Virus record (IMG/VR): IMGVR_UViG_3300036851_000382
Span: 1 to 39,514 of that record
Source of the DNA: a virus
Direction: 5' to 3' (one strand)
DNA: 39,514 nt
How positions within the stretch are numbered: position 1 is the first letter of the stretch; each line of letters starts with the position of its first letter. The position numbers and the translations under genes are program-made. Of the stretch, positions 566-26,991 are shown piece after piece. Below the pieces are notes generated by a model that was not told where the DNA came from, made no database searches, and saw nothing but the letters and a program-made list of their open reading frames with translations.

Positions 566-1096
566 TCAACAACGCGGGTCCGCCTTCTTTTCCGGAAAAC
601 ATGATTTGATGTACTTGATCTGCGCGGCCGACAGACACGCCCGCACTTGGCACTTCTGTCGGTTGCTGTAGGCCTCGTATCGCCATTCGTTGGCAACAAT
701 CACCCCGCATGGCATGCCGGCGCCGAAGCGGGCTTCGCCGCATGAGATCGGCTGCTCGGGAGCCGCAGCCGTCGACACCACGGAAGTGCCCGTGGGTTGC
801 GGCTTTGCTGCACCTTTCGATGCGGATTTTGCCCGAGTCGTCGACGCCTGTTTCTTGGACGTTTTGCGCGACGCGGGCGAGGCCGCTGGTGCGGGTTTCG
901 GAGGATCAATGGCCGCGGCCTTCGGGGGAGCCTCCGACGCTGCCGGCGCCTTGCGCTGCGGCGCCTGTGGGGGAAGCGGAGCGACGGCAGGCGGCGCGCC
1001 CCTGAACCACCGCCGCACGCGCTCCTGGTTGGTCTCGGCCTGCGCTAAGGTGGCAAGCAGCGTGAGCATGCAGGCTAGTGCAAGCGCTGCTCTCAC
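566..1096 (-). CDS. Secreted Pro/Ala-rich protein with Cys-rich C-terminus
   Basis: 176 aa. A typical signal peptide (MRAALALACMLTLLATLAQA, cut before ET) has no lipobox. A long Pro/Ala/Lys-rich linker covers about residues 30-110. A compact C-terminal domain with six cysteines (motifs ISCGEARF, MPCGVIV, KCQVRACL, SCFPEK) suggests disulfides in the periplasm. The GTG start overlaps the stop of the upstream lysin gene as GTGA, so it is translationally coupled and belongs to the lysis operon, as its last gene. The linker plus exported Cys domain could span periplasm and wall like a spanin. However, there is no lipid anchor or membrane segment, so function is unknown. Confidence 0.7.
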   Translation of the reverse strand: MRAALALACMLTLLATLAQAETNQERVRRWFRGAPPAVAPLPPQAPQRKAPAASEAPPKAAAIDPPKPAPAASPASRKTSKKQASTTRAKSASKGAAKPQPTGTSVVSTAAAPEQPISCGEARFGAGMPCGVIVANEWRYEAYSNRQKCQVRACLSAAQIKYIKSCFPEKKADPRC

Positions 1097-1584
1097 GACG
1101 CGTTAGCTCCGGCTTTCCAGCGGCGGGCCACGCGGCCGAAGACGTTGATGCCCATATTGATGAGCATGCCGTAGGGCCCGGCCGCGCCAGCAAGAGCGCC
1201 AATGCCGGCATTGATCGCGGTCACGTCCGAAATGCCGCCGTTGTACCAGGTGGCGAAGGTGGCCAGAACGCCTAGCAGCCCACCGGCCGCGTTCTTGGCG
1301 ACGGTCGAGGCGGTCGAGGATGGCGGGGAAACTGGCGTCGTCTTGGGTGCGGGCTTCTCCGCAGGCTGCGCATCGATGACGATCGGCTGCAACGTCGGCT
1401 TGATCTGCTGCAGCACTGCATTGAGCAGCGCGTTCAAGTCCGTTGGCGGAGGAGGAGGTGGAGGTGGCGGCGGGGGCGGCAGCGCCTCGCGCGGCGTGGC
1501 GCCGAGCAGCTGCTGCAGCAACTGACCAATCAACTTCACGGTCTCATCGCCCGCCGGTCCCGCCTGCGTCGGATCATTGGCCAT
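1093..1584 (-). CDS. Putative holin-like protein from an internal in-frame start of the lysin gene
   Basis: The same reading frame as the long lysin has an internal ATG at 1584 preceded by a near-perfect AAGGAG site (read on the minus strand) six bases upstream. Starting there gives 163 aa: MANDPTQAG, an amphipathic stretch, a run of 12 prolines, a Lys/Pro linker and two hydrophobic helices (about GGLLGVLATFATWY and INAGIGALAGAAGPYGMLIN), then a basic tail RVARRWKAG. This layout fits a small membrane protein such as a holin. Either it is made separately from the internal site, or it is simply the C-terminus of the lysin, or both. The strong internal binding site favours separate translation. 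Confidence 0.5.
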   Translation of the reverse strand: MANDPTQAGPAGDETVKLIGQLLQQLLGATPREALPPPPPPPPPPPPTDLNALLNAVLQQIKPTLQPIVIDAQPAEKPAPKTTPVSPPSSTASTVAKNAAGGLLGVLATFATWYNGGISDVTAINAGIGALAGAAGPYGMLINMGINVFGRVARRWKAGANAS

Positions 1585-3843
1585 CTGTTTCTCCTTGACC
1601 TTCAGAATGATGAGCAGGACGAGCGCGAGCAGCAGGCGCTGCTTGTCCGAGGTGTCCGGCGCCGGCGGCAGAATCTCCGGCTCCTGCGGCGGCTTCGGCG
1701 CCGGGATCGCATCGACGATCGCTTGCACCTGTTGCAGGAGCGTTTCGGCTTCGGGTCGCAATTCGACCTCGCGGCGATCAATTGGCCCCCAGTGCTTGCG
1801 CAGGACGCGCACGCCGACGGCTGCGCATTCGACGGCAAAGGCGGGACACGATCTTGCAAGTCGCTGGAAGTCCGCGCCGTCGCCGGATCCAGATGCACCG
1901 GAGGCGCCGAAGCCGACGCCTTCCGCGAAGATCGAGACGTAGCTCGGCTCCGGATTGGCCGAGTAACGCGAAAACAGCTTCGGAAATTCCGGCGAGGCGC
2001 CGCGCGAATCCCAGCTCTGCTGGAAGAGGCCGGCCTCGGCCGTGTCGCCGGACACGTTGCTCGCGCTGGCGTCGCGGCCCTCGTAGTATTTACCGCTCGA
2101 CTCACGCATGCCGAGACCGATCAGGAACGCGAAGGTGCTGCGCAATGCGTCAACACCGGCCCGCGGCGGTCCGATGCCGTACCAGGCGAGCGCGTCGCGA
2201 TCCGGATCGCCGGCCGCCTGCGCCATCACGCGCGCCGCCGAGTCGCCCGCCCGCAGATCGAGGCAGGCCGTCGCGAACATCACGGCCATGCCCTTGATGT
2301 AGCCGATCGGCGCGACGCTGCGATCGTCCCAGGCGTAGCGTGCGATCTCGGACGCAGCGGCGAGCGCCGTGATGCGGGCGATGGTGTCGGGCGACAGCGT
2401 GGCCGCCAGAGGCGACTGCGCCGCGGTCAACAGACCCCACGTGTGCGAGCCGACGATGCCATCGACGAACAGCCCGCGGCTCGCCTGGAAGGCGCGCACG
2501 GCGGCATCGGTGTCCTCGCCGAAAATCCCATCCGCCTCGATTGCGAGCAGGGTCTGCAGCTCGAGCACCGCCGGCCCGCGATCGCCGATCCTGATCTTCG
2601 GCCGCGTCGCGGCGCTATGCGTCGGTGAATCTGCATTTGTGAGATCGAAAACCCACGGCCGCGGATTGTCGATATCGTTCTCGACCGAGATGTGCACGTG
2701 CTCGGAATGGTCGCCCGGTCCCTGGTTGCGCGCGCGCCACTGCCATGGCGATACCTTCGCGCTGCAAATGCGGCCGTTCCAGATGATGTACTCGATGCGC
2801 GGGTCTTTCTCGCGCCGTAGCGATTCCGCAAAGGCATCGACGTCGAAGCCGGACGCCGGATCGTGCGTGATGTCGAGCGCGGTGACGATGCGTTGCGCAT
2901 TCGGGTTGTGATCGGAGACCCGCGCCTGATGGGCGGGATCGCCGATCGTCCCGTCGTTGCCGTGCTTGCGCGTGGACGGCAGCATGCTGTCCACCTGGTC
3001 GTAGAGCATAAGCAGGCTTTTCGCGACGCGACGCATGCTATCACCGCGCCAGATCTTCTGGGAGGCAGGCGGGACCGTATCTGCCATGCTCGGCCTCTGT
3101 GGTTGTGCCGCGATTGGCAACTGAAAATCCTCGACCGCGCCGCCGTACTCCTCTGCGGCATGGTCGTAGGTCACGCCCATGTTGACGAACTTGACGGCCC
3201 GGATCGCAGCCGCACGCGCGAATGGAAGCCCATCACCGAAGAACACGAACCAGCACGGCAGATCCGGCTTGCCTGCCGCAGTCCGCAGCACCTGCATCTG
3301 ATCAGGCGTGCCGGCGCCCTTCTCGACGATGATGCCGAAGACGTTGGGATGCGCGATCCACTCCGTCGCATCCTCGTCCATCGCGAGCGGATTCTTGGCG
3401 ATGACGCGCAGGCCGTAGCTCTGCGCCAGATCAGTGGCGCGGATTACGTGCCTGAGCGAATGAACCTCGGGCGTCGAGTACGCATCCGGGTTGTCGAGCT
3501 CGACGTACCTGAAGCCGCCGTCGCGCCTGCGCGTGAATTGCTCCCGGAGATTCGCTTCAAAGCCCACACCATTCTCATCCGGAACACCCTCACGATATTG
3601 ATGAGCTGTGTCCGTCTGTTCTCGATAAGGCGGGAACCTGCCTTCGTTCCTTTCATCAAGGAGATTGCAGTAGGCGATAGATATGCCGACTGGCGTCGGA
3701 TTTTCGATGTCATACCCAACCTCGATGATTTCACCCAGCTTGCCTTGCCCGGGATTGTTGGTGCCGATTAGGTAGCGCAGCGGCTTGCCGACGAGTTCAC
3801 TCACCGAAACGCGTCCCATCCCGGCCAACAGATCAGCAGCCAT
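1093..3843 (-). CDS. Multidomain cell-wall lysin with C-terminal membrane region
   Basis: 916 aa, far longer than usual endolysins. Residues about 1-250 resemble a TIM-barrel glycosidase of GH114 type (GFRYVELDNPDAYS near 111-124). Residues 265-400 are an M15-type D,D-peptidase with SDHNPN (His312), LDITHD (Asp324) and HSEHVHIS (His382, His384). Residues 415-470 are a peptidoglycan-binding repeat (RIGDRGPAVLELQTLL). Residues 500-700 look like a lysozyme/transglycosylase fold (GMRESSGKYY with Glu581, AEAGLFQQS). A short membrane helix (735-749) leads into the holin-like portion from residue 754. The start is uncertain: ATG 3843 lacks a good binding site, ATG 3819 is possible, and a GTG at 3804 overlaps the upstream stop as GTGA. 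An internal ATG at 3087 would start the peptidase half. Predicted role: peptidoglycan degradation at lysis. Confidence 0.8.
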   Translation of the reverse strand: MAADLLAGMGRVSVSELVGKPLRYLIGTNNPGQGKLGEIIEVGYDIENPTPVGISIAYCNLLDERNEGRFPPYREQTDTAHQYREGVPDENGVGFEANLREQFTRRRDGGFRYVELDNPDAYSTPEVHSLRHVIRATDLAQSYGLRVIAKNPLAMDEDATEWIAHPNVFGIIVEKGAGTPDQMQVLRTAAGKPDLPCWFVFFGDGLPFARAAAIRAVKFVNMGVTYDHAAEEYGGAVEDFQLPIAAQPQRPSMADTVPPASQKIWRGDSMRRVAKSLLMLYDQVDSMLPSTRKHGNDGTIGDPAHQARVSDHNPNAQRIVTALDITHDPASGFDVDAFAESLRREKDPRIEYIIWNGRICSAKVSPWQWRARNQGPGDHSEHVHISVENDIDNPRPWVFDLTNADSPTHSAATRPKIRIGDRGPAVLELQTLLAIEADGIFGEDTDAAVRAFQASRGLFVDGIVGSHTWGLLTAAQSPLAATLSPDTIARITALAAASEIARYAWDDRSVAPIGYIKGMAVMFATACLDLRAGDSAARVMAQAAGDPDRDALAWYGIGPPRAGVDALRSTFAFLIGLGMRESSGKYYEGRDASASNVSGDTAEAGLFQQSWDSRGASPEFPKLFSRYSANPEPSYVSIFAEGVGFGASGASGSGDGADFQRLARSCPAFAVECAAVGVRVLRKHWGPIDRREVELRPEAETLLQQVQAIVDAIPAPKPPQEPEILPPAPDTSDKQRLLLALVLLIILKVKEKQMANDPTQAGPAGDETVKLIGQLLQQLLGATPREALPPPPPPPPPPPPTDLNALLNAVLQQIKPTLQPIVIDAQPAEKPAPKTTPVSPPSSTASTVAKNAAGGLLGVLATFATWYNGGISDVTAINAGIGALAGAAGPYGMLINMGINVFGRVARRWKAGANAS

Positions 3844-4575: not shown

Positions 4576-6285
4576 CTAAGCGGGAATGAACCCGAGACTC
4601 GCGTAAACGCTACCCGTGTTGCTAGCTGTCCCTGACGGGTTTGCTTCGACGCTGACGTCATCGCCAACGTTAAACGATGCGACGTGCGTCAAATCACTTG
4701 CGGTTGTATTGCCATCCGAAACCGTTGCTGTCACCGAGGTCGCAGCGCCGTTCTTGCGGACGGTGATCACGTAGCTTTGCCCACCGCCGGGCGAGCCGCC
4801 CGTCTTGATTCTCAGGCCAACGACCAATCCAGCGCGGATCATCGGCATTCTCGCGTTGCTCTCATTCGTATCGGATGTCCCCATGCAGAGATATTTGGTC
4901 ACGTCCCCGGCCAGATTGATGGCCGGCCCGCCGACCACAGGGAACGGCTCCGCAAAATTGACCAACTCTGGCCCGGTCATATTGACTACTGGGCCGCATC
5001 CGATCATGCGGCCATTGAGGACACCGGAACCGGTACCCTGAAAAGCGGCGGTTTGCGGGCTGGGGATGCTCCATTGGCAGTTCGAGAATGTGATGCTATC
5101 TAGGAAGTTACCACTCGGCACCTCCAAGAAGTGCTCGGACGCGCTGCCTCCCTCCGAATAGAACTTGCAGCCGTAAAACCCGACATTCCTCACGTAGCCT
5201 GTGATGTACACGTGTGCTTCGCTGGCTGCTGAGCAATCGACCAGGCACCCAAAAAAGTTGATATTGTTGACGTTCTTAGTCGAGCTGTCCGCGCTCGACA
5301 ACTGAATCGCTCGACCGCCGTCCGTCCCCTGGAACCGAGGGTGACATTCGACCATGTTGAACGTCAGCTCATTGACCGACGCCGGGTTTGACGCGTTCAC
5401 TGTCACATACGATGATGTCGGCTTGTCGTCGGCGTCGCCGTTGACATGGATGGCGCGCCCGATCGCTGTGGCCTGGTAGTTCTGCAGATCGGTTTTCGCG
5501 ATGCCGGAATTCGTGCAGCCGTAGAACTCGATCGCCGCCCTCGTAAAGTATCCGAGGATGGTGCAATTCTCTACGAAATTGACGTTCGATGAGCCGGCCG
5601 CCTCCTCTGCAAAAAGGATTCCCTGCGACGGCACGGTTGCCGGCGCATCACCGTCGGACTCCTGCCCGGCAATCGTTAAATCTCGGATGCTAACGCCGCT
5701 GCTGCCCGTACAATCGAATATCGGGCGTGACGAACTCTGGTGAATTCCGCGGATCAAGGTCGCGCGACGACCCTTGCCACGAATCACCATCCCGCCGGGA
5801 AAATTGGCGATGCCAGTGAAATCTATGGTCGAGACGGAATATGTTCCGGCTGAGAATTCCAGAATGCCACCAGTCGTCGAAGTTGCCGCAATCAATGCGG
5901 CTGCAGCGGCGTTAATAGCCGAAGTACTATCGGTGGCGCCCGATGAATCCGCGCCGTAGCTATCGACCGAGAACACCCCGCTAGAGGCCGCAGTTACGTC
6001 TTCGGCATCACGCTCGCCTGCCGTACCGACCGCGACGTACCGCAATGGTTCGGCAACGAGATTCCCGCCTATGCGGGCCTCGATCTTATAGGCACCACCA
6101 ACGACGTGGAAACGCCCGCTGGCGTTCGCGGACGTGAACGGATTTCCAAGCGCAGATAACCCGTCACGATCGCCGTACAGCTGCGGCATGCTCGCGTCGG
6201 ATTCGTCTCGAACGGTCAGCTCCGCTCCGGTCACGTCGTTACCGGCGGTATCCTGAATGTGAAAATTGTAAGCAGCGAGCGCCAT
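4576..6285 (-). CDS. Tail spike / pectate-lyase-like beta-helix protein
   Basis: 569 aa. The N-terminus (about 1-105) has the domain usual at the head of such spikes: AAYNFHIQDTAGNDVTGAEL, then a beta-rich virion-attachment region. VDSYGADSSGATDSTSAINA at 107-126 is the start motif of the pectate_lyase_3 right-handed beta-helix. Many short Asn/Gly-rich rungs follow (IRDLTIAGQ, VNFVENCTI, IEFYGCTN, INFFGCLVD, VGFYGCKF, ITFSNCQW). The C-terminal 120 residues form a separate beta-rich domain ending SLGFIPA. Expected role: trimeric receptor-binding or polysaccharide-degrading spike. Catalytic residues cannot be assigned by eye. It starts 14 bases after the tail-tip gene. Confidence 0.8.
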   Translation of the reverse strand: MALAAYNFHIQDTAGNDVTGAELTVRDESDASMPQLYGDRDGLSALGNPFTSANASGRFHVVGGAYKIEARIGGNLVAEPLRYVAVGTAGERDAEDVTAASSGVFSVDSYGADSSGATDSTSAINAAAAALIAATSTTGGILEFSAGTYSVSTIDFTGIANFPGGMVIRGKGRRATLIRGIHQSSSRPIFDCTGSSGVSIRDLTIAGQESDGDAPATVPSQGILFAEEAAGSSNVNFVENCTILGYFTRAAIEFYGCTNSGIAKTDLQNYQATAIGRAIHVNGDADDKPTSSYVTVNASNPASVNELTFNMVECHPRFQGTDGGRAIQLSSADSSTKNVNNINFFGCLVDCSAASEAHVYITGYVRNVGFYGCKFYSEGGSASEHFLEVPSGNFLDSITFSNCQWSIPSPQTAAFQGTGSGVLNGRMIGCGPVVNMTGPELVNFAEPFPVVGGPAINLAGDVTKYLCMGTSDTNESNARMPMIRAGLVVGLRIKTGGSPGGGQSYVITVRKNGAATSVTATVSDGNTTASDLTHVASFNVGDDVSVEANPSGTASNTGSVYASLGFIPA

Positions 6286-6299
6286 GGTTCAATCCCGAT

Positions 6300-9212
6300 T
6301 CAATTGATCTGCGGACCGCGGATGTCGCCGGGCGTGCCAACATCGGTCACGAAACTATCGCCGTCGATCGCCGTGCCGGCCGCGCCGCCGGCTGCGTCGC
6401 TACTGTTCTGTCCGGCCAGCCCCGGCCCACCGCCAGCGCTACCACCCCCACCGCCCGCGCCGCCCGCCTCAGTGGTGCCAGCCGACCCAGCCGGCGGTCC
6501 TGTTCCTGCCGCGCCGGGAAGCTGACCAGCACCACCGCCACCGCCACCGTCGGCGTCGCCAGCGCCACCGCCGCCACCGCCCCAGATGTCGCCGCTGCTT
6601 GACGTGAGATTGATGGCGTAGCGCGTATAGAGCGCCGTACCGCCTGCGCCGCCCGGCGTGCCCGTGCCGCCGCTGCGATTACCGCCCGGGCCGCCGGCGC
6701 CCTGGATGCGACCGATGACTATAAGATTGATCGTGACTCCCACCGGCCAGCTGCCGACATCGAAAGCCCGCAACGCTGTGCTGACTGATCCGATGATGAT
6801 GCCGGCGTTGATTGTCGCGGTGACCTCATTGCCCGTCGTCGGCTCAGGATAAAGTTCGTCATGGCGAGTTCGCAGATTGACGTTGTTCTCGTTGGTATCA
6901 AAGATGATGCTCCGCTCGTCCGGATTGACCTCTGCCCCGAATGCAGTGAACAGCATCTCTTCCAACTCGATGCGCGGCCGCACGCCATCCGGATCGACGC
7001 TCGTCACCTGTGCGCCCAGATCCACGCGATCGCCGGTCTCGTCCTCGAACGGCCACGATGAGACACGCGGCGATCCGCCGCCTAATCGATAGCCGCCGCC
7101 CAGCAGCGGCAATTCCACCGAGCCCCGCAGCAGCTCGAGCGTGAACCGGCGCGGTGGCCGGACGTACCGGCTGAGATATTTCGTCGCCAAAGCCTCCGCG
7201 ACCGTGCGCCCGCCGGCCGCGATCCCACGAGCAAAGATTCGCTTGATGGATTGCGACCCTTCGTCCTCCTCGGACTGTGAATCGCTCTGCTCTTCGGTCG
7301 ATCGATAATTGTCGAGGTCGTCGATCTTCTTCAGCGGGCTGATCTGTCCGAAATAAACGATGACGCGTGAGACACGCTTGTCGGGCTGCTCTTTCACTTC
7401 GAGCGAACCCTCCCATACGTTGTCTTCGTTGTAGCGGTCCGCCGTCGTTGCAACTGCCCGCAGAATCTGCAAACGGATCTGCTGGTTGATGTCGTCCCAC
7501 CATTGCGCCGCGCCCATGTATTGCAGCATTTCCGAGATGAGCTTGTTGACCGGGGTGGGCTCCGCGATGTTGAGCGTGTAGACCACACCAAGGAATGCTG
7601 CGGTCTCGGCCTGCCAGGCCGCCAGCGAGATCCAGGCAGGGTCCGCGCCGGCCCGATCCCACAGGTCTTCCAGAATGACGGCGCCATCCTCCCCGACGTA
7701 GCGCAACATCTCCTGCACGCGGTCACCGGTATCATGCGCGACTGCGGTCGTGTTGAGTTGGCCGCGGGTGATGGTCAGGACATCACCGGACCGCGTGAAC
7801 GACACGACCTCGGTGCCACCGATGGTCGCATGGCCCGACGCGGCATACGTGCTGCCGATGCCGGTCGGCGACAGCGTCGCCGAGGTCACAGCGTTATTGA
7901 TGCCCGAAACCAGAAACCCGGCTGACAGCGCCGGCGCCAATGCCCGGTCACCGTCCGCGATCTTCAGCACGTCCTTCGCGACGATCGAGAACTCGCCATT
8001 CGCCGACGGTCCCTCGATCGAGTCCACGAGGTAATGCCGCGTCTCCATGTCGGCGAGCGCATCGCCGACGAAGCCGCGGATCAGCCGAAACGGCCGGCTG
8101 CGAAGAAACGGGTTTCGCGCACGAAACTTTCCCCAGAAGGTGCCGCGACTATAGGGATCGCTGTAGTCGCGCTCCAACGGATACTTGTCGAACGTCACAC
8201 CGGCGTCCGAGTGCCGCGCGTTCTTGAACCGACACCTCACCGTCGCCCGCTGCCCCAAGTCGCCGCTGAGCGAGACGATCGCAGGCGTGACGTCGAGCTG
8301 CTTGATAAAGGGCAGTGCGTCGATCTCGCGTGGCAGGAAGCCGACGTCTTCCGCGAACCGCAGTGTCACCGGATCGTCATCGAAGTTCTCGCGGTCCTGG
8401 CACGTCCCGAGCGAGTTGAAGCACTTGGCCGCACCGAACGGAAACTCGCCGAGTTCGCCGTTGAGTGTGAACGGGCCGCCAAATCCTTTGTTGGTGTGCC
8501 ACGTCGATATCGCACCGGACAGGAACACGTGCGGACTGGAGCCGGTCGGCAACTCTCCGGTCTCACCCAGAAATGCGGGCCGTCCGTTCGCATCGATGAA
8601 CTTGCGGCGATTGGCTGTCACGCTGAGATCGATATGCGTGTTCATGCTCACCCACAGATCAGCGATCCGACCATTAACTTTGTTCGTCGTCGCCACCTCA
8701 GATCCCACCGCGAAGTTCGTGTCCGTATAATCAATGGTATCGTTGGTGTTCACGGTTATCACGGTGCTGAGAACATCGTTGATCGCAAACTGAAGGACTC
8801 CAGTTGCCAAATTCCACGACGCCAGCGCATGCACCCACTCGGTAGCGACGACCGTCGTCGGCCCAGGTTGAAATAGCATTATGATCGTCCCGGCAGCGTT
8901 CGCCCCAGTCACGCGAAGTTTGTTGTCGGTCTCGCGCTTGAAGCCGAATTTGCCAGTCGATGTGTTTAGGATGCAGTGCACGGCACCGTCGCCGGCTAAC
9001 AGGTCAATCCAGCACGACAGCGTCCCCTGCTTGCCGTTGACCGCGCTCAGTTCACCACCCGCAAGCAAATAGTCGTCCGTGCCGTCGAAGACGGCCGCGA
9101 ACGGCCCTTCGTTGTCGTCGTCGTAACCGAGATGCGCGTGACACGGCAGGACGCCGTAATCTAGGGCGCAGTGTGGCACATCGAGTTCGACGAAAGTGAC
9201 GGCCTGCTGCAT
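6300..9212 (-). CDS. Tail tip/hub protein with gpL-like Cys motif, LamG insertion and polyglycine tail
   Basis: 970 aa from ATG 9212 (AAAGG seven bases before it). A TTG at 9239 would add nine residues but has no better site. Near the N-terminus CALDYGVLPC (C-x8-C) and, about 240 residues later, CFNSLGTC (C-x6-C) followed by QDRENF reproduce the spacing of the four cysteines that bind an iron-sulfur cluster in lambda tail-tip protein L. Between them lies a LamG/concanavalin-like beta sandwich (FDGTDDYLLAGG ... NGRIADLWVS). The middle is hub-like (RYVGEDGAVILEDLWDRAG, AAQWWDDINQQIRLQILRA). The last 130 residues are glycine-rich blocks (WGGGGGGAGDADGGGGGG) like polyglycine tail adhesins. Likely baseplate hub plus receptor contact. 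Confidence 0.75.
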   Translation of the reverse strand: MQQAVTFVELDVPHCALDYGVLPCHAHLGYDDDNEGPFAAVFDGTDDYLLAGGELSAVNGKQGTLSCWIDLLAGDGAVHCILNTSTGKFGFKRETDNKLRVTGANAAGTIIMLFQPGPTTVVATEWVHALASWNLATGVLQFAINDVLSTVITVNTNDTIDYTDTNFAVGSEVATTNKVNGRIADLWVSMNTHIDLSVTANRRKFIDANGRPAFLGETGELPTGSSPHVFLSGAISTWHTNKGFGGPFTLNGELGEFPFGAAKCFNSLGTCQDRENFDDDPVTLRFAEDVGFLPREIDALPFIKQLDVTPAIVSLSGDLGQRATVRCRFKNARHSDAGVTFDKYPLERDYSDPYSRGTFWGKFRARNPFLRSRPFRLIRGFVGDALADMETRHYLVDSIEGPSANGEFSIVAKDVLKIADGDRALAPALSAGFLVSGINNAVTSATLSPTGIGSTYAASGHATIGGTEVVSFTRSGDVLTITRGQLNTTAVAHDTGDRVQEMLRYVGEDGAVILEDLWDRAGADPAWISLAAWQAETAAFLGVVYTLNIAEPTPVNKLISEMLQYMGAAQWWDDINQQIRLQILRAVATTADRYNEDNVWEGSLEVKEQPDKRVSRVIVYFGQISPLKKIDDLDNYRSTEEQSDSQSEEDEGSQSIKRIFARGIAAGGRTVAEALATKYLSRYVRPPRRFTLELLRGSVELPLLGGGYRLGGGSPRVSSWPFEDETGDRVDLGAQVTSVDPDGVRPRIELEEMLFTAFGAEVNPDERSIIFDTNENNVNLRTRHDELYPEPTTGNEVTATINAGIIIGSVSTALRAFDVGSWPVGVTINLIVIGRIQGAGGPGGNRSGGTGTPGGAGGTALYTRYAINLTSSSGDIWGGGGGGAGDADGGGGGGAGQLPGAAGTGPPAGSAGTTEAGGAGGGGGSAGGGPGLAGQNSSDAAGGAAGTAIDGDSFVTDVGTPGDIRGPQIN

Positions 9213-9889
9213 TCCTGGACCTTTGCGCCCTTCCGACAATTATCAATGGCCCAAAGAGGCTGGAGATTTGAATAGTGAAAAGCTTCGTCGAATTGCGTCG
9301 CATCCGACAGATTGAACGATGATAACGGCCGAATATGATCGATATGCCAGTTCCCGTAATTTTCCCAACACATACCTGGAGCGAACAATGTCTCAAGATG
9401 GGCCTTAAGATGGTCTATCGAGCAACCAAGCGATCTAACCGCAGATGCGCCAATCGTGTTTCGTTTTACGGCGCAATACAGCCTGATACGAATATTTCGC
9501 GTTATACGAACATTTACCCGCTTTTGGTAAGCCGATCTGGATTGTCGACCCCGCGCTGTTCTAGACCAACGAATCTGCCTATCCAGCGCCTTCTTTCGAA
9601 CTTCCGGCTTTTTCCTGTTCTTCGCACGCCATTCCCGGGCACGCTTTGCTGCGCGGAGACGCACCTCTTCTTTATACCTGTTCTTCAGGTGCCATTGCCG
9701 CGCCGCTAGACGCGATTCCTGTTTACCTCGTTCCGTTTCGCGCCGTTTTTGAACGTTCTCAAGACGGCACACTACACAAACTCCATTACTTGTATGCCTA
9801 TTAGCTATGTGGCCTCGGCTGCAAGGTACCCCTGTGAAATAATGCTTCGCACCGATCCTTCTTGCCCGACTACGTTCCGCGCGCTTCAC
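9161..9889 (-). CDS. Free-standing HNH homing endonuclease
   Basis: 242 aa from a GTG at 9889 with an AGGGAG site 6-7 bases upstream. An N-terminal zinc-finger-like element (YFTGVPCSRGHIANR ... CVVC, residues 18-41) precedes a long basic linker (50-130). The HNH core is WHIDHIRPLSSF (181-192) with SNLQPLWAIDNCRKGAK (207-223). These are hallmarks of the phage HNH family that nicks DNA to spread its own gene. The family normally ends just after RKGAK. Here the frame runs about 20 residues further, over the start of the tail-tip gene, so that gene's binding site and start lie inside this one. No intron boundaries are visible. It probably invaded the gap between two tail genes. Confidence 0.85.
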   Translation of the reverse strand: MKRAERSRARRIGAKHYFTGVPCSRGHIANRHTSNGVCVVCRLENVQKRRETERGKQESRLAARQWHLKNRYKEEVRLRAAKRAREWRAKNRKKPEVRKKALDRQIRWSRTARGRQSRSAYQKRVNVRITRNIRIRLYCAVKRNTIGASAVRSLGCSIDHLKAHLETLFAPGMCWENYGNWHIDHIRPLSSFNLSDATQFDEAFHYSNLQPLWAIDNCRKGAKVQECSRPSLSSNSMCHTAP

Positions 9890-9953: not shown

Positions 9954-10781
9954 TCAAACGACGCCCTGCATCTTCAGCGTGACGGCAACACGGCGCGTGA
10001 CTGTATCAACCTCCGGCAGCGGGGAATTCATCAACCATGCGTATCCAACGTCGTTCGGGTACTCCGTCGGATTCCAGGCAAAGAAGAATGAGCCCCGCTC
10101 GACGAGGAATGGCTGGAAGTTCGCGCGATACCAGGTCGGATCGAAGTGGCTGAACTCAGCCTCGGATTCATTGAACCGATTCGTCTCGATGCGGCCGAGA
10201 AAGTTTCCGCTCTCGCTCTTGCCGTTGACCTCTTTCGAGACGATTCCCAGTGGAAACGGGACATGCGGCACGTCGATCTTGATGCTGCGCTCAAGGATGA
10301 GGAGTTCACCAACGAAGACGACTGCGGCCTCCGGGAAATCGTCGCCCGGCTGCATGCGCAGCCGGATGCCGGCGAGCGGCTGCGGCTCGAACCGGAACAA
10401 CACCGGCGAGTCGTCCGCAAGCATCCGTTCCTCGATCAGCTCAAACCACACTTGCGGAGACGCAGCCAGGTCATGGCAGCCCTCGACCGACACGACAATT
10501 GCCTCGCTGCCGAAGTTGTGCTTGGCAACAGCCATATAGTCGATGTCGTCCGCTGTATTCGTCGTCACTGTGACGTAATCATCACCGGCCGTGCTGAAGG
10601 ATCCCTTCCACTTCAGATGTGTGGCGGGGTTGGCAACATTGGCGACGGGAAAGTCCGCATCTTCAGATGTGGCGTCCACATTCGTGCTGACGACGATGTT
10701 GCGCCATCCGATGATCGGATTGTTGGCGTCGAGTAGTTCCGCCTCCGACAGGACAATATTAGTGGAAAGGACGAGCGGCAT
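9954..10781 (-). CDS. Tail protein downstream of tape measure (distal-tail-like)
   Basis: 275 aa, no membrane segment, beta-rich, with a discoidin-like feel in the N-terminal half (NVANPATHLKWKGSFSTAGD ... YMAVAKHNFG). The C-terminal half contains GSFFFAWNPTEYPNDVGYAW, a motif seen in tail proteins encoded right after the tape measure. By position between tape measure and hub it should be the distal tail or an equivalent tip-assembly protein. It starts seven bases after the tape-measure stop. The HNH gene follows in a 64-base gap. Role is assigned mainly from gene order. Confidence 0.65.
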   Translation of the reverse strand: MPLVLSTNIVLSEAELLDANNPIIGWRNIVVSTNVDATSEDADFPVANVANPATHLKWKGSFSTAGDDYVTVTTNTADDIDYMAVAKHNFGSEAIVVSVEGCHDLAASPQVWFELIEERMLADDSPVLFRFEPQPLAGIRLRMQPGDDFPEAAVVFVGELLILERSIKIDVPHVPFPLGIVSKEVNGKSESGNFLGRIETNRFNESEAEFSHFDPTWYRANFQPFLVERGSFFFAWNPTEYPNDVGYAWLMNSPLPEVDTVTRRVAVTLKMQGVV

Positions 10782-10788
10782 CGCACGA

Positions 10789-12495
10789 TCACCGCTCTGC
10801 GACGCGCAGGATGTAGCCGTCGCTGTGGCGCAGGTTCAACGTCTCGACCAAGTCACGGAGGTTGGTCCCCATCAGGAAGTCGCTCATGCGCATGCCGATG
10901 GTGATTTCATCGACGGCGCCGCGGCGCCGCCCGCCGGCCGCAACCTCGTTCGCGGGCGTGACCTCGACCAGTTCGCCCGATGCCAGATTGAGATTGGCGG
11001 GGAAGTTGTCGGTCATCGACATGCCACCCGGCACTATGAATGAACCACCCTTGGCTGCGCCTGGCGGGGTCTGGCTGCTGATCTTGATGACGTTCGCGAT
11101 ACCTGCGGCGATCACGGCGGCGGCGGCGATGAAATTGAGCGGAGGCGGCGCCGACGCCAGGGCCTTGTTGGCACCGATGTAGGTGTCGATCGTAGCCTGC
11201 GCGATGCCGAACGCTTTTGACGCAATGAACAATTCCTTGTTCTTCCCGGCGATGCCCTCGAATGCCTTGCTGAAATTGCCGAGCGCACTGGACGCTGTCG
11301 CGGCATAGGTCTCGGCCGCCTTTTCAGCGACGCGCTGACTAACTATGCCGAACTGCTCTTGGGTCAGTATCCCACGGGCGAATGCATCATTGATCTTTTG
11401 GACCTCGGCCGCCATCTCTTCGGCTGGCGTTCGGAACCGCTCCATGATCGCCAATTGCTCGGCCTCGATCGTGGCCATGGCATCAACAGCGGCCTTGCGA
11501 TCTGCCTCAAGCTTCGCTCGATCAATCAGCACAGGTGCGGGCGGTTTTTCCTTACCGAATTCCTTTATCTTGTTGTCAAGGGCTTCGACACCGAGCTGCA
11601 AACCAAGGCTCTCGGTCTGAGCGCCTGCCATTGCGGCGGCCGTCGCCTTGATGGCGGCGGCAATGCCCGGGAACGACTTTGCAAGCACCTCCCCGATGAC
11701 CGACATAACCGTGTTGGTCTTGGTTCCTTCTATCTGCACTTCGATCAGCTTTGAAGTGAGCAGCGCCAATGCTGGCGCCAGGAATGCCGCGATGCTGATC
11801 GTAGCGGCATCGCTCAACTTTCCGAGCGTCTTCAGGTTGTCGTTAAACTGCTCCGCGGCCTTTGCCGTCTTCTCATCAATGACGATCCCCAAATCTTCCG
11901 CTTGCTTCTTGAGAGCCGTAATGCCGGTCGCGCCTTGGTTCAGAAACGGAATCAGGTCTGCGCCAGACTTGCCGAACAGCGCGACAGCGAGCGCGGTCTT
12001 TTCTGCGCCATCCCGGAAGCCTTCGAACTTGCCGGCAATCTCAAGAAGGATGTCGTCAGTTGCCTTCAACTTCCCATTCGCGTCAGTCACCTTGATCCTA
12101 AGCGCCGTGAACGCCTCTGCCGCCGCGCCACTCGTCTTGCCGCCGGAAATCTCGCTCATGGCGCGAGACAGCTTGCTGACTCCGGTCTGCAATTGCTCGA
12201 TGCTGACGTCCGCCAGTTCGGCGGCGAATTTGAGTTTAGACAATTCCTCAACCGGAATGCCGATCTTCTGCGCAGCCTTGCCGAGCTTATCGGCTTCATC
12301 TAGTGCGCGCCCAACGGCCACCCCGATAGCCACTGCCGCCCCGGCTATCGCGAGCCCGACCGCGGCACCCATCTTCGCCATGTCCTTGGCGAAGCCGTCC
12401 ATGCGATTGGACGCACCTTTCAGTCCGGTCTCGAATGCGGCTGTGTCCGCACCGAGCACGACCCTGAGAGCACCGATAACGGCAGATTCGGCCAT
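10789..12495 (-). CDS. Tail tape measure protein
   Basis: 568 aa. It opens with the common tape-measure start (VIGALRVVLGADTAAFETGL), followed by a Gly/Ala-rich hydrophobic segment (GAAVGLAIAGAAVAIGVAVG, about residues 43-62), then long coiled-coil regions (KLKFAAELADVSIEQLQTGV; EAEQLAIMERFRTPAEEMAA) and a second hydrophobic stretch near residues 455-475. At about 0.15 nm per residue this predicts a tail near 85 nm, which is short for the group. Its ATG follows the chaperone reading-frame stop as TGAAATG, so it is coupled to the chaperones, as in most siphoviruses. Confidence 0.9.
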   Translation of the reverse strand: MAESAVIGALRVVLGADTAAFETGLKGASNRMDGFAKDMAKMGAAVGLAIAGAAVAIGVAVGRALDEADKLGKAAQKIGIPVEELSKLKFAAELADVSIEQLQTGVSKLSRAMSEISGGKTSGAAAEAFTALRIKVTDANGKLKATDDILLEIAGKFEGFRDGAEKTALAVALFGKSGADLIPFLNQGATGITALKKQAEDLGIVIDEKTAKAAEQFNDNLKTLGKLSDAATISIAAFLAPALALLTSKLIEVQIEGTKTNTVMSVIGEVLAKSFPGIAAAIKATAAAMAGAQTESLGLQLGVEALDNKIKEFGKEKPPAPVLIDRAKLEADRKAAVDAMATIEAEQLAIMERFRTPAEEMAAEVQKINDAFARGILTQEQFGIVSQRVAEKAAETYAATASSALGNFSKAFEGIAGKNKELFIASKAFGIAQATIDTYIGANKALASAPPPLNFIAAAAVIAAGIANVIKISSQTPPGAAKGGSFIVPGGMSMTDNFPANLNLASGELVEVTPANEVAAGGRRRGAVDEITIGMRMSDFLMGTNLRDLVETLNLRHSDGYILRVAER

Positions 12496-15865: not shown

Positions 15866-18025
15866 TCAAGCGTTGAAGGAGGCGTACTTCAGACGTCGCA
15901 CGCTTTGCTCGGGCTCCAGTGAGCCGAACGCAAACCCGCTACCCTGAAATCCGACATACACCTGACCATATGTGTCCGGATCGCCTTCGATCCACTTGAT
16001 CGTGTCGAACAGTCCGAGCGGATAGCCGTCGCTGATGCGATTCCAGGTCGGGGAAGCCTGCTCGAAATCGTCCGACCGCCAGATGCCGAAATTCGCCGCC
16101 GCGGTCCCACCGACCCACCCGACGATGAACACGGTGGGATAGCCACCGCCGCCAATCTTGGGTTTGCCGAATCCGAAGCATCGAACTTCGGTGACACCGG
16201 AGAGGGCGCTCCAGGTCGCCCCACCATCGGTGCATTTGAAGAAGCTGCCGGTCACGCCAGGTGTGACGTCGCCGCCGGTGTAACACAGATGCCCGGCATT
16301 ACCCGGTACGCAACGCATCTTGGCATGGAAGCCATCGACACCGCCGCCGTCGGCAGTGAAACGGCCTGACTTCCTCAGCGTCCAATTTGCACCGCCGTCA
16401 GTCGAGCGGTAGACGCCATCAGCGCCGGTGACGTTGTTGAACGCATAGAACGTTCCGATGTTGATGCGGTCGGCACAGACGATGTGGCGATTTATCTGGG
16501 CACCGAGCGACGCCCAGCCGCGATTACCCGATGTGGGAACCCCTGAGATCGTCGGCGTGTTCCAGCTGGCGCCGCCGTCCGTTGTATACTGCAGCGGCGC
16601 ATTGGAATCGGACGAGCAACAAACGAAATTGGTGGACGATGCTGCCGCGATACAACCGCCGTCGCCGAAACCGGTCGGCTGTGCAGCCGGCGCCGACCAC
16701 GTCGCACCACCATCAGACGACTTCCGAACTGATGGCAACAGTGCGGCGATGAACGTCGGATTGTTCGATGCCCAATCGGCGGCAGCACCGAACGCGAAGG
16801 CACTAGTCGGGCCATATGTCGAAGGATACGTCCCGAGCGTCGCGATCCGAATGACCGGCCGATCCCACGATACCAACAGCGGCTTGCCGCCGGGCGGCAC
16901 GATCACCTGGTTGGCAACCAAATCCTCGATACCAAGCGTCTGCGACGTCCACGACAACCCGCCCGACGTCGGCGGGGTGATCACCCAAACACCGACGCCC
17001 TCCGCAGCATAGAGCTTGTTCGACTGCGATGGATCGTAGGCGATCGTCCCGAGCGACATGAAGCCGATGGAGTCAGGCCCCTCCATCACATACTCAAGAA
17101 TCGGTAGGTCCGATGCGGTCCAGTTGGTCACTGGCGTGTTATTCGGATACCCGGACCACGAACTGCCGCCGTTGATCGTGGTGCTGATCTCTCCCGCGTT
17201 GCGCTGCACGGTTATATGATTGGCGTCGGATGGATCAACCGCTACGCCACGCGCCGGACCTGCCCCGGCATTAGCCGACCACGATCCGTTATAGATACGC
17301 AGATTGCTGCCATCGACACCGTTGTCGGTCAGGTACACTATACCGGTCGGTCCGACCGTCAGATGGATGTGCGTCGTCGGACTGGACGACGTCAATGCCC
17401 AGCTTGCCCCGCCATTGGCTGAGCGATAGACGCCATTGCCGTAGCTCGACGCATAGATGATTTGCGTCTTGCCACCAACGACACTCGACGACGGATCGAA
17501 CGCCACCAGCACGCCGCCGGTATTGGTCGAGGTTGGAACGCCGGCAACCTGCGCCCATGTCGCGCCAGCGTCATGCGTGACCCAAAGCCCGTGCTCTCCG
17601 GTGCCGACATAGACCACGTCGGCGTTGTTCGGGTCCACGGCCATCTTGTAGCCCATGACCCGCGGCGATGCGTCGCCGATAGCACTCTGGTCATTCGGGT
17701 TGCAGCCATCCACATGCGTAAAGGCGGTGACGCTCCAGGTCACGCCCGAGTTGTCCGACCGGAACACCCGGCCACCGAACATCATGTAGAGCCGCGACGT
17801 CTGGCTCGGCGCGATCCTGATCTCGTAGACGCCCTCGCCGAGCCCATCGACGGCATGAGCCGCCGGCATCGACACTGTGGTGACGAGCTGCACCCATCGC
17901 GACCCGTTCCAGCGATAGGCACCGAACACGTCGATACGGCAGACCTTGGTGCCATCGGCGGCAATGTCGATGCCGGTCGTGAAGCCAAGCGCGCCGACAT
18001 TCAAAGTCTGCCATGCCGTCCCCAT
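15866..18025 (-). CDS. Asp-box beta-propeller protein (BNR / GH74-like)
   Basis: 719 aa with at least eight Asp-box-type motifs: SDNSGVTW, THDAGATW, SANGGASW, TINGGSSW, SSDGGATW, TTDGGASW, STDGGANW and CTDGGATW. These are linked by strands such as MAVDPNNADVVYVGTGEHGL. This arrangement is that of seven-bladed or paired propellers in the sialidase/BNR, sortilin and GH74 (xyloglucanase) families, and is closest in style to GH74. There is no signal peptide, so it is not a secreted host-type enzyme. In this context it is probably a virion-bound glycan-binding or glycan-cleaving protein. Catalytic acids cannot be assigned without alignment. ATG 18025 has only a weak binding site, and a divergent promoter region lies upstream. 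Confidence 0.75.
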   Translation of the reverse strand: MGTAWQTLNVGALGFTTGIDIAADGTKVCRIDVFGAYRWNGSRWVQLVTTVSMPAAHAVDGLGEGVYEIRIAPSQTSRLYMMFGGRVFRSDNSGVTWSVTAFTHVDGCNPNDQSAIGDASPRVMGYKMAVDPNNADVVYVGTGEHGLWVTHDAGATWAQVAGVPTSTNTGGVLVAFDPSSSVVGGKTQIIYASSYGNGVYRSANGGASWALTSSSPTTHIHLTVGPTGIVYLTDNGVDGSNLRIYNGSWSANAGAGPARGVAVDPSDANHITVQRNAGEISTTINGGSSWSGYPNNTPVTNWTASDLPILEYVMEGPDSIGFMSLGTIAYDPSQSNKLYAAEGVGVWVITPPTSGGLSWTSQTLGIEDLVANQVIVPPGGKPLLVSWDRPVIRIATLGTYPSTYGPTSAFAFGAAADWASNNPTFIAALLPSVRKSSDGGATWSAPAAQPTGFGDGGCIAAASSTNFVCCSSDSNAPLQYTTDGGASWNTPTISGVPTSGNRGWASLGAQINRHIVCADRINIGTFYAFNNVTGADGVYRSTDGGANWTLRKSGRFTADGGGVDGFHAKMRCVPGNAGHLCYTGGDVTPGVTGSFFKCTDGGATWSALSGVTEVRCFGFGKPKIGGGGYPTVFIVGWVGGTAAANFGIWRSDDFEQASPTWNRISDGYPLGLFDTIKWIEGDPDTYGQVYVGFQGSGFAFGSLEPEQSVRRLKYASFNA

Positions 18026-22384: not shown

Positions 22385-23209
22385 CTATTGGATCAGCCGC
22401 CAGAGGGTTCCATCGACCAGTTCTTTTTCGTTGAACTGGTGGTAAGCGAGGGAATGCAACCAACGCGTCCGGTCCGGATAGATCGGCTGTTCTATCTTGG
22501 ACAGGTCAGTCAATCCGACGAATGACGCAGCCGAACACGGAGCGACGAACACCGGGCATCCCATGATGACCGCCTCGACGGCGGCGATCGATGCGTGCGT
22601 GACCAAGGCATGCGCGCCGGCGAGTTCCTGCGACAGCTCGACCTTGGATTCCTTGTCCCGCACGACGAGTCTGCGGTTGGTGTATTCCTTCAACGCCGCG
22701 AGTGTGCGTTCCAGCCAGCCTTCTTGCCCGTGCAGCCTCGCGTAATCTGTCCCGCCAGCCGGCGCGATCAGGATGTGCTCGCCCTGATGCCACGGAGAAA
22801 TCTCGATCTTGCGTGGATCGACGCGATTGCCCGGTACCAAGACCTGCCACCGATCGTCTGGCACGTCGTCCACTTGGCGCATTTGAAACGAATTCACGCT
22901 CCATCTGTAGTAGCCGCCATCGGCACCGCGCGGCAGACCAGTGGCATAGACCCGGCGGACATAGCCGCGGTCCCAGTAGATCCACGTTCTGCCACGCGAG
23001 CGCCACTCTGCGATCATCGGACGGAACTGCGGCGTGCACCCCACGATCGGCACGATCTGATCTGGAAGGCGACCGACCGACGCGTGATCTCCCCTGATGA
23101 CGCGCCCGCCATACGCCTCGATCTTGCTGCCGATGCGATTGAACAGATCGAGCTTCACGCGCCGCAGCTCGGCTGGAATGAAAAGGCAGACCTTCGACGG
23201 GTCGATCAT
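22385..23209 (-). CDS. GT-B-like glycosyltransferase
   Basis: 274 aa. The N-terminal half reads like an acceptor-side Rossmann domain (KVCLFIPAELRRVKLDLFNR; WIYWDRGYVRRVYATGLPRG). The C-terminal half has a donor-site pattern (HILIAPAGGTDYARLHGQEG, THASIAAVEAVIMGCPVFVA), the usual Ala-x-x-Glu-Ala-x-x-x-Gly-Pro/Cys-Pro-Val stretch of GT-B enzymes such as capsule synthesis and CDP-glycerol-type transferases. Start ATG overlaps the upstream GIY-YIG stop as ATGA. Last gene of the main cassette. Substrate unknown. Confidence 0.65.
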   Translation of the reverse strand: MIDPSKVCLFIPAELRRVKLDLFNRIGSKIEAYGGRVIRGDHASVGRLPDQIVPIVGCTPQFRPMIAEWRSRGRTWIYWDRGYVRRVYATGLPRGADGGYYRWSVNSFQMRQVDDVPDDRWQVLVPGNRVDPRKIEISPWHQGEHILIAPAGGTDYARLHGQEGWLERTLAALKEYTNRRLVVRDKESKVELSQELAGAHALVTHASIAAVEAVIMGCPVFVAPCSAASFVGLTDLSKIEQPIYPDRTRWLHSLAYHQFNEKELVDGTLWRLIQ

Positions 23210-24150
23210 ATGTCCCTTTTCGCAGCCTTAGCGGCAGCGCGACGGGCAATCTGCATCGCCCGATATGCCGGATCGGCCCATTTGGCTCTGAGCATTGCAC
23301 TTTGCTTCTCTCGTGCATCAGGGGCAGCAAAACGTTTGCTTCGCCATTCTGGATTTGATGCCCAAGCTGCAAGTGCTTTGTCGCGCAATCGCGCAACACG
23401 GTCAGGATCGCGCCAAAGATCAGCTAATTTTTGTCGAAAGTCAGTGTCACGCCACACCTGAGACTGTTTCTTACTTGCTCTCGACCGGCGCTCTGGAGTA
23501 TCGGCCGCCTTAAACGCTTGCAGCATTTTAGAGCGCTCTAGCTGATCAGCCCACCGCAAACGCGATTTTTCACCTTGTCTTTTGCGAAACGCTGGATGGG
23601 ATCGAACTGATACTAGCGCATTTCGCCAGTCAGGATCGCTCCATCGAGCTCTCATCGCCGTGCTTTGCCTTTCACTTTGCCTTGGATCGGACCAGAATGT
23701 CTCGATCGCCGACCGATGCTTTGGGTCAGTCCACATAGCTATCGCGAACTGGATTCTCCTTGCGCGGTACTGCGAATCTGACCAACGCCGCTTCAAGTGC
23801 TCTGAATCAAATCCGACGCCGCCAGATAAGATATTCCACAATTGATCGCGAGGAACGGCAGATATTTCTACTATTTCGCGTTCGAAAGCCTCTTCAGAAG
23901 ACAGCCCAGAAGAAATTATTCGAGACTCAACTACAGATCCGACCCTCAGTGCCTTGGCGAGGCGGTTGTAAAACTTCGTCGCAGTAATCTTTACACCGGC
24001 GGCACGTCTTCGATTAATGCTTGCAGCAATCTTCAAATGATCTCTGACCCGGCGACCCGTTCCCTTGCCGATATAACGAACAATTCCATCCACGGCGATG
24101 GCGTAAACGTAGCAGCCGGGCGGATTGTGATGTATGGATGGCTTAGCCAT
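23206..24150 (-). CDS. GIY-YIG endonuclease with repeated DNA-binding motifs
   Basis: 314 aa. The catalytic domain has CYVYAIAVDGIVRYIGKGTG (GIY-YIG elements, residues 13-32), RRVRDHL with the catalytic Arg, Glu in SSEEAFEREIVEI and Asn in LWNILSGG. From residue 120 on there are tandem 20-30 residue elements of the form R-W-(S/A)-DP-x-(W/Y)-R (WSDSQYR, WTDPKHR, WSDPRQS, WSDPDWR, WRDPDRV, WADPAYR), probably each contacting DNA. It is free-standing inside the sugar cassette, overlaps the next gene by ATGA and leaves a 96-base gap upstream. Base composition is visibly less GC-rich than its neighbours. A homing enzyme that inserted here. Confidence 0.85.
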   Translation of the reverse strand: MAKPSIHHNPPGCYVYAIAVDGIVRYIGKGTGRRVRDHLKIAASINRRRAAGVKITATKFYNRLAKALRVGSVVESRIISSGLSSEEAFEREIVEISAVPRDQLWNILSGGVGFDSEHLKRRWSDSQYRARRIQFAIAMWTDPKHRSAIETFWSDPRQSERQSTAMRARWSDPDWRNALVSVRSHPAFRKRQGEKSRLRWADQLERSKMLQAFKAADTPERRSRASKKQSQVWRDTDFRQKLADLWRDPDRVARLRDKALAAWASNPEWRSKRFAAPDAREKQSAMLRAKWADPAYRAMQIARRAAAKAAKRDI

Positions 24151-24246
24151 TCGGGCGCTCCTATCGCTCGGGTGGTCAGAGCCGTCACGGTGTCATCAGC
24201 ACCTTGGCGGCTCGCTGATTCTAGATCAGCACGAATCAGATTTCAA

Positions 24247-24942
24247 CTACCTCCAGTGCTCATGAATCCAAGGCAAGTACCTGAACTTCGACGGATCGCG
24301 CCAACCCGGAAAGACCACCAACTTGGCATTATCGGGTAAGTGATTGTCCTTCGGCCACCCCCGCTTTGCGAATGACCAAATCCCACTTTCTGGCCCAACA
24401 TTCCAACCAGCGCCATCAGGAATCTTGGCGTTGAGCCAAGCCTGATCGTCCGGAAATTCGTAATATGGCACCCGTTTTGCCGCCGCTATGGAAAAGTCCG
24501 ACCACACATCTGGCCGATAGCCCGCACGGAGCATCCAGAGCGATCCGTTGTATGGACAGGGGTTCGATGCGTTCGCGCCTTGCAATATCAGGAACGGATC
24601 GGAACGAAAAAACAGCGGATCGAGCGGACCAGTCACAACAGCATCGAGATCGACGCACACGATACGATCATCCACCAACAATTCGCGCTGCCACTCAGGA
24701 TCAAACAGCCGCAGTCGAGCGAAGCATCCGCGGATGGCTAACAGTTGTCGATCACGGATATGCGTGACGGAAAATGGCGGTCCAACACTTGCTAAACGCT
24801 GCGCCTGCTCCTCAAGATTCCCATCCACGGCACACACGAACCGATGTGGCTCACGCAAGTGGCGGGCGAACCCTGCCCGAAGTCGTTCGACGTATTCTGG
24901 CGGGTATTTGTCTCCCCACCAGAACGTGATGACGGTCAACAT
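24247..24942 (-). CDS. GT-A glycosyltransferase (DxD, GT8-like)
   Basis: 231 aa. MLTVITFWWGDKYPPEYVER is a GT-A-like start. IVCVDLDAVVTGPLDPLF contains the metal- and sugar-nucleotide-binding DLD (98-100). NPCPYNGSLWMLRAG (127-141) and DDQAWLNAKIPDGAGWNV are typical of GT8/galactosyl- and glucosyl-type transferases. WIHEHWR closes the chain. Likely transfers a hexose from a nucleotide sugar. ATG 24942 is used; a GTG at 24948 is possible. It overlaps the upstream methyltransferase gene by seven bases. Confidence 0.75.
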   Translation of the reverse strand: MLTVITFWWGDKYPPEYVERLRAGFARHLREPHRFVCAVDGNLEEQAQRLASVGPPFSVTHIRDRQLLAIRGCFARLRLFDPEWQRELLVDDRIVCVDLDAVVTGPLDPLFFRSDPFLILQGANASNPCPYNGSLWMLRAGYRPDVWSDFSIAAAKRVPYYEFPDDQAWLNAKIPDGAGWNVGPESGIWSFAKRGWPKDNHLPDNAKLVVFPGWRDPSKFRYLPWIHEHWR

Positions 24943-25514
24943 CGCCACAACACCCCGAAGCCGTTGTCCTGACCCGTCGGATCAAGCACGATCTCTTCGC
25001 GATGCGGGTAGAACCCCTTTATCGAGTCCCAAAACTCCCGAACATCAATCTGATATCCCGTCCAGCCAGCCGGGCGGCGCCAAGCGATGTCATGAAAGGC
25101 AACGATGCGGCCGAGCGGCCCGTAGTTCTCCCAATCCTTTGAGACGTAAGGAAGCGTGTGATTCGCGTCGATCAGGACTAGGTCAAACGGCCCAAGCTCG
25201 CGAACCGCCGCCACGATCTTGCTGTCGGTGCTGTCGCCCCAGAATAGAGTCGTCTGATGTCCCATCGCCCGCAGACGCGCGGAGCATGCCTGCAACGATA
25301 CCTTGCTTTCGTTCCAGGCCCTTGTAGCCCCCGGCATGTCGATCGCGACAACCTTGGAACCCGATGGCATCACACTCGCCACTCGCCAGAGCGAGCCCCC
25401 GAACTTCGAACCGATCTCCAGGTAGGACCGGACGTTCTCCCGCTTCACTATTTCGACAAACGCCGCGATCTCCGCTTCGTGCTGCAACGCTTTGGTTTCA
25501 TACAATTCAGGCAC
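24936..25514 (-). CDS. Class I SAM-dependent methyltransferase (Methyltransf_24 / CmcI-like)
   Basis: 192 aa from GTG 25514, preferred because GGAG lies eight bases before it. Earlier starts would reach deep into the upstream gene. RSYLEIGSKFGGSLWRVASV (29-48) is SAM motif I. KVVAIDMPG holds the acidic end of strand 2, GPFDLVLIDANHTLPYVSKD the metal-binding region of O-methyltransferases, and RIVAFHDIAW motif III. This family includes sugar O-methyltransferases and the cephalosporin-hydroxylase-type enzymes. In a glycan cassette, O-methylation of a sugar is the natural reading. Confidence 0.75.
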   Translation of the reverse strand: MPELYETKALQHEAEIAAFVEIVKRENVRSYLEIGSKFGGSLWRVASVMPSGSKVVAIDMPGATRAWNESKVSLQACSARLRAMGHQTTLFWGDSTDSKIVAAVRELGPFDLVLIDANHTLPYVSKDWENYGPLGRIVAFHDIAWRRPAGWTGYQIDVREFWDSIKGFYPHREEIVLDPTGQDNGFGVLWRC

Positions 25515-26987: not shown

Positions 26988-26991
26988 GCCC

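Follow-up and report, generated by a model that had tools for sequence, protein, structure and literature searches.

A LamG-like domain inserted in the four-cysteine loop of a predicted single-chain phage tail hub

A viral genome stretch of 39,514 nucleotides (IMG/VR record IMGVR_UViG_3300036851_000382, hereafter the window) encodes a 970-residue tail protein (6300..9212, minus strand) in which two pairs of cysteines are separated by a domain of the LamG or concanavalin-like type. This arrangement raises the question of what kind of tail protein carries the domain, what the cysteines do, and why a lectin-like fold should lie between them. The initial annotation proposed that the cysteines are the [4Fe-4S] site of the lambda tail-tip protein gpL, that a glycan-binding domain is presented from a loop of this metal-cluster domain, and that the gene joins gpL-like and gpJ-like roles in one chain. 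Our main reading, to which we give a probability of roughly 0.6, is that the protein is a tail hub in which a metal-binding cysteine knuckle would staple a LamG domain displayed at the tail tip for host glycan binding.

The carrier: a predicted single-chain tail hub

The open reading frame ends at 6300 and probably starts with the ATG at 9212, the start called by the gene finder being a TTG at 9239. Residues 253-966 match the tail fiber family phrog_11439 (E 5.8e-127), and the gene comes after those for the tape measure protein (10789-12495) and for a small tail protein of phrog_11633 (9954-10781), an order that is also found in phages carrying relatives of the protein. The possibility that the reading frame is a chimeric assembly was rejected, because the same layout recurs in two homologues from other contigs, L010 and L094.

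A phmmer search of the whole protein against the PDB gave no match. An AF2 model of residues 1-760, built from 66 sequences (pLDDT 84, pTM 0.73), has T5 pb3 among its best structural matches (Foldseek E 2.3e-12). Hubs of the gp27, Mu gp44 and VgrG type align over model residues 2-754 with Z scores of 15-18 (Mu gp44, 15.9), the Milano hub aligns over 308 residues (Z 18.1), and lambda gpJ aligns to residues 506-760 (Z 16.8). The predicted domain arrangement is thus the one common to T5 pb3, lambda gpL plus gpJ, gp27 and VgrG. Model and matches together delimit a hub core at residues 280-760 (6933..8375, minus strand), which comprises the remainder of hub domain I, a beta domain at about 430-505, and a part resembling gpJ, gp27 and VgrG at 506-760. 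Behind the core lies a Gly-rich C-terminus (6300..6902, minus strand) like the receptor-recognition brush domain of gp38 of phage S16; it matches PDB entries 9v85 (E 1.4e-9) and 6f45 (E 3.5e-7), both matches being biased by composition. On the strength of the model, we take the gene product to be a single-chain siphophage tail hub. The proposed union of gpL-like and gpJ-like roles in one chain holds up, since the rest of the protein corresponds to a complete single-chain hub followed by the Gly-rich C-terminus.

The closest described parallel for this architecture is gp25 of Alishewanella phage LSH1, a single-chain hub described in 2026, which likewise combines a gpL-like N-terminal domain, a gpJ-like middle and a Gly-rich brush C-terminus, and for which no cysteines for a cluster are reported (PMC13243795). 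The hubs of Pseudoalteromonas phages such as Pq0 share this plan. Pq0 and PB15 have sequence homologues of the window hub with neither the cysteine loop nor a LamG domain.

The cysteine motif, the LamG insert and their natural variants

The first cysteine pair, Cys15 and Cys24, is found in CALDYGVLPC (C-x8-C; 9141..9170, minus strand) and the second, Cys264 and Cys271, in CFNSLGTC (C-x6-C; 8400..8423, minus strand), followed by QDRENF; the two are separated by 239 residues, exactly as originally described. We collected 104 distinct hubs from phage records, IMG/VR and bacterial genomes, of which 90 have both pairs and the remaining 14 lack both; no hub has a single pair, and this all-or-none distribution excludes a chance motif. 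The first pair is spaced C-x8-C in 87 of the 90 motif-bearing hubs, C-x12-C in two and C-x14-C in one. In 83 of the 90 the loop is compact, with only 6-14 residues between the pairs. Homologues from cultured phages have this compact form, as in Idiomarinaceae phage 1N2-2 (CALTFGNAPC-TATGSGNSK-CFNTFRTC-QDQQNF).

Both pairs have good local confidence in the hub model (pLDDT in blocks of 74-91), in which the motif appears to sit within hub domain I, between the first hub strand (residues 4-12, AVTFVELDV; 9177..9203, minus strand) and the strand at residues 282-288 (8349..8369, minus strand). Homologues keep the pattern xxVEIDx in the first of these strands and TLRFA in the second. Judging from the strand order of the model, and from homologues whose turn here comprises 13-17 residues, the two strands would be the hairpin partners that carry the motif.

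The domain between the pairs spans residues 38-263 (8424..9101, minus strand), with a Pfam core at 43-188. A Pfam scan of the whole hub protein reported no LamG domain, whereas the insert scanned alone matched Laminin_G_3 (PF13385) with E 1.5e-11 and 45.1 bits, above the curated cut-off of 27.6; 11 of the 15 members of the alignment of insert domains match the same family. Folded alone from these 15 sequences, the insert forms a two-sheet jelly roll (pLDDT 88.9, pTM 0.87), and its best structural neighbour by VIA-align is 4dqa, a putative carbohydrate-binding protein of Bacteroides (Z 20.3, rmsd 2.6 Å over 196 residues). Other close neighbours are PAPP-A, through its LamG domain (Z about 20), and the pentraxins (Z 17-19). 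The insert is therefore an independent LamG-like domain, as had been proposed; within the full-length hub model it reaches moderate confidence only, with 10-residue blocks at 39-87.

Relatives of the window hub vary the content of this loop. Five hubs, the window's included, carry LamG between the cysteine pairs: four have a single domain, with gaps of 226 (L111), 239 (window), 246 (L010) and 250 residues (L094), and L025, with its near-copy L026, has two in tandem in a gap of 447. Pfam confirms Laminin_G_3 in L111 and L025. Two further hubs, L132 and L139, have gaps of 48-49 residues, and L134 has a different domain placed after an intact compact cysteine loop. Among the hubs without the motif, LamG stands at the same place once in L016, once in L119 and twice in L121; L133 and L140 have another N-terminal stretch of about 200 residues there, for which no Pfam match was found, and in nine a short turn is all that is present. 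The LamG-bearing loops keep the flanks of the compact loop, which places the insertion at the loop apex: C-x-A is kept after Cys2, and TG-x-x-K before Cys3 is kept in L010, L094, L111 and L025, the window having FGAAK.

To place these variants on a phylogeny, we built a tree of the 104 hub cores with the loop left out. The window hub is sister to two hubs with compact loops, L118 and L122 (support 100), and the four hubs that combine the cysteines with a single LamG require four changes, whether origins or losses, forced by supported branches. Across the whole tree, LamG presence changes at least six times and cysteine presence at least four times, counts to be taken as provisional, given that the tree was searched rapidly and its branches were assessed by a single support measure. 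When the window-type LamG was used as a profile, it matched the inserts of L010, L094 and L016 and none of those of L111, L025, L119 or L121, so at least two stocks of LamG have been used.

The beta domain that follows hub domain I contains a second insertion site, at which L036 (residues about 275-490) and L025 (about 689-912) carry inserts, that of L036 being a LamG found by the window-type profile. In the window hub the corresponding hairpin, around residues 474-490 (7743..7793, minus strand), is empty. The window-type LamG also occurs in other phage proteins, including three tandem copies in L038, and, being found both there and at a second hub site, it behaves as a mobile module. The cysteine loop itself gives the impression of a ready-made socket in which host-binding modules are exchanged, since relatives have taken up such domains at the same spot several separate times. 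These comparisons identify a fixed point at which the hubs of alphaproteobacterial phages exchange lectin-like domains.

A proposed stapled glycan-binding domain and its alternatives

By analogy with known hubs, the protein would assemble into a ring of three subunits beneath the tail tube. Near the N-terminus, a hairpin of hub domain I would be capped by the four-cysteine knuckle, with the pentraxin-like LamG inserted at its apex so as to leave all four cysteines and most of the flanking residues intact. Most likely the knuckle coordinates a single putative metal centre, iron-sulfur or zinc, and it would staple the two strands to each other at the neck of the loop. Whatever its size, an inserted domain could then be displayed outside the tail tip with the hub undisturbed. 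The LamG most likely binds a host surface glycan, presumably in three copies per tail, and its binding sites would add to those of the Gly-rich C-terminal domain and of a separate tail spike. The staple is evidently not required for carrying an insert, since L016, L119 and L121 have LamG without the cysteine motif. Within one hub family there are thus natural variants with an empty cysteine loop, a LamG-filled cysteine loop, LamG without cysteines, and neither, and because these occur among close relatives the staple role of the metal centre can be tested by comparison.

Layouts of this kind have been described in other tail hubs. In the hubs of RcGTA and roseophage R4C, the two cysteine pairs of an iron-sulfur site flank an oligosaccharide-binding domain (PMC7296036, PMC10276861). 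The upper baseplate protein gp50 of JBD30 has the same cysteine layout around a putative metal, its two pairs being separated by 81 residues (PMC11445458). RcGTA g13, R4C and JBD30 gp50 share with the window hub the four cysteines, spaced C-x8/9-C and C-x6-C, and an insert between the pairs, so the combination of four cysteines with an insert is not categorically new. The window hub resembles the RcGTA and R4C type in having an independent domain between the pairs and departs from it in what that domain is: the insert there is an OB or gp27-type oligosaccharide-binding domain of about 80 residues (81-86 residues between the pairs in JBD30 and R4C), whereas here it is a LamG of about 225 residues. 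Moreover, the cysteine domain of RcGTA, R4C and JBD30 follows hub domain I, whereas the window loop lies near the N-terminus and within domain I, and the window hub, unlike these three, has the hub and gpJ parts in one chain. Carbohydrate-binding modules also occupy exposed loops of the evolved Dit proteins of lactococcal and lactobacillus siphophages (PMC9692632, PMC6669499); these modules are borne by the hexameric distal tail protein, with no cysteine knuckle described, whereas the carrier here is the hub, so the window protein falls outside that class. The insert has the score and fold of Pfam Laminin_G_3, here placed in the loop of a viral hub, and in open-access papers we did not find a tail hub described as carrying a LamG or concanavalin-like insertion. 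As far as our searches reach, the new elements are where in the hub the cysteine loop lies, the fold (LamG) and size of the insert, the tandem LamG, and the repeatedly used insertion point.

The alternative that survives best concerns the chemistry of the knuckle, which could be a structural cap with a single zinc or two disulfides and no iron-sulfur chemistry. We regard this as a serious possibility, though not the favoured one. It draws on JBD30 gp50, which has the same C-x8-C and C-x6-C layout and whose model includes a single putative metal ion (PMC11445458), and on the loss of all four cysteines in 14 of the 104 hubs, which shows that some hubs can do without the centre. On the other hand, the two best-studied hubs of similar spacing, those of lambda and RcGTA, hold iron-sulfur clusters. 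Spacings as long as C-x8-C and C-x6-C are also unusual for zinc knuckles.

Somewhat less probable is a LamG that is not a glycan receptor: its partner would be a protein, either on the host surface or of the phage itself, or it would only stabilize the tip. LamG and pentraxin folds bind proteins as well as sugars and can have purely structural roles, and the folds closest to the insert include PAPP-A and neurexin domains that are active in protein binding. However, the top VIA-align match, 4dqa, is annotated as putatively carbohydrate-binding, the domain that RcGTA and R4C have at the corresponding position, between their cysteine pairs, is classed as oligosaccharide-binding, and the frequent swapping of LamG suggests an exposed recognition role.

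The equation of the knuckle with the gpL site itself fared worse. The spacing given there for gpL was right: its cysteines, Cys173, Cys182, Cys205 and Cys212, are arranged as C-x8-C, 22 residues and C-x6-C, in a C-terminal domain (residues 154-232) that follows hub domain I (PMC10721106). We therefore weighed the idea that the window hub has the same [4Fe-4S] domain, moved or permuted, with LamG inserted into its loop. The spacing within both pairs is identical, and gpL shares a few flanking residues with the 88 hubs compared: a Tyr or Phe four residues after Cys1 (84 of 88), a Lys before Cys3 (79 of 88) and an Arg three residues after Cys4 (49 of 88). The role of hub domain I is also common to both. 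The likeness ends there, because gpL has its cysteine domain at the C-terminus, has no insert, and is a chain separate from gpJ, whereas the window cysteines, at residues 15-271, precede most of hub domain I (residues 280-430).

Sequence profiles likewise fail to connect the two. Profiles of the cysteine motif aligned to gpL only at the second pair, with E 0.11, below the 95th percentile of column-shuffled controls, these profiles being short and of little power. There was no significant match when the whole hub was compared with gpL and JBD30 gp50, or hub domain I with gpL, R4C and JBD30; for this reason we claim neither homology of the cysteine motifs nor membership of the window hub in the gpL iron-sulfur family, although the knuckle may work in a similar way. 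In addition, the single-chain hub of LSH1 has a cysteine-free beta domain in place of the gpL C-terminal domain (PMC13243795), and residues of about 430-505 of the window hub look equivalent to it. A shared, relocated gpL domain thus seems improbable; what stands of the original equation is the spacing and a few flanking residues, and not the position in the hub or the profiles. Convergence could account for the likeness of the two motifs, as could a move of one of them.

A more ambitious form of the stapled-loop reading, which we offer tentatively, is that the knuckle differs from the gpL iron-sulfur domain and forms a docking socket closed by a metal, that it evolved, at least partly, so that hubs could take in and exchange whole receptor-binding domains at a single fixed point, and that it is a second independent invention of the RcGTA layout. 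The function of iron-sulfur clusters in phage tail tips has been stated to be uncharacterised (PMC10721106), and such a socket, if real, would give a functional reason for metal centres there.

The suggestion that the insert is a neutral passenger with no role in adsorption can be largely set aside: the loop does tolerate very different lengths and contents, but LamG recurs at the same point from at least two stocks and always in frame, and the window-type LamG keeps conserved positions relative to distant relatives.

Host and surrounding genome

Matches to the hub in bacterial genomes are mostly from alphaproteobacteria (Bradyrhizobium, Ancylobacter, Devosia, Filomicrobium and Rhodomicrobium), with an additional branch in Chlorobiaceae, and a rhizobial-type host is likely for the window phage. 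One homologue, L127, comes from a record titled Bacillus subtilis strain SK6B4; its neighbours in the tree are viral contigs and alphaproteobacterial genomes, and the record may be mislabelled or the assembly mixed.

The window contains several nuclease-like reading frames, all on the minus strand. Between the small tail gene and the hub gene lies an HNH or endonuclease VII-like reading frame (9161-9889), which overlaps the start of the hub gene by about 50 bases and is probably a homing endonuclease. A second homing endonuclease (36200-37240; phrog_314, E 1e-35) separates the major head gene from the terminase gene, and a GIY-YIG nuclease (23206-24150) is found inside a block of about ten genes (22385-29982) between the head and tail genes. 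This block has weak to moderate matches to glycosyltransferases (GT9, GT8, DUF6716) and methyltransferases, and a role in glycan modification of the host surface or the virion is possible.

Several other genes of the window, also on the minus strand, are of note. Directly downstream of the hub gene is a 569-residue pectate-lyase-like tail spike (4576-6285), likely a second host-binding or depolymerase component. A 719-residue protein with Sortilin-Vps10 and BNR beta-propeller matches (15866-18025) is encoded near the tail genes, and a 431-residue collagen-like or tail-fibre-like protein (31240-32535) adjoins the portal gene. At 1093-3843 lies the gene for an endolysin-like multi-domain protein of 916 residues, which includes a peptidoglycan-binding domain and has a long stretch of polyproline.
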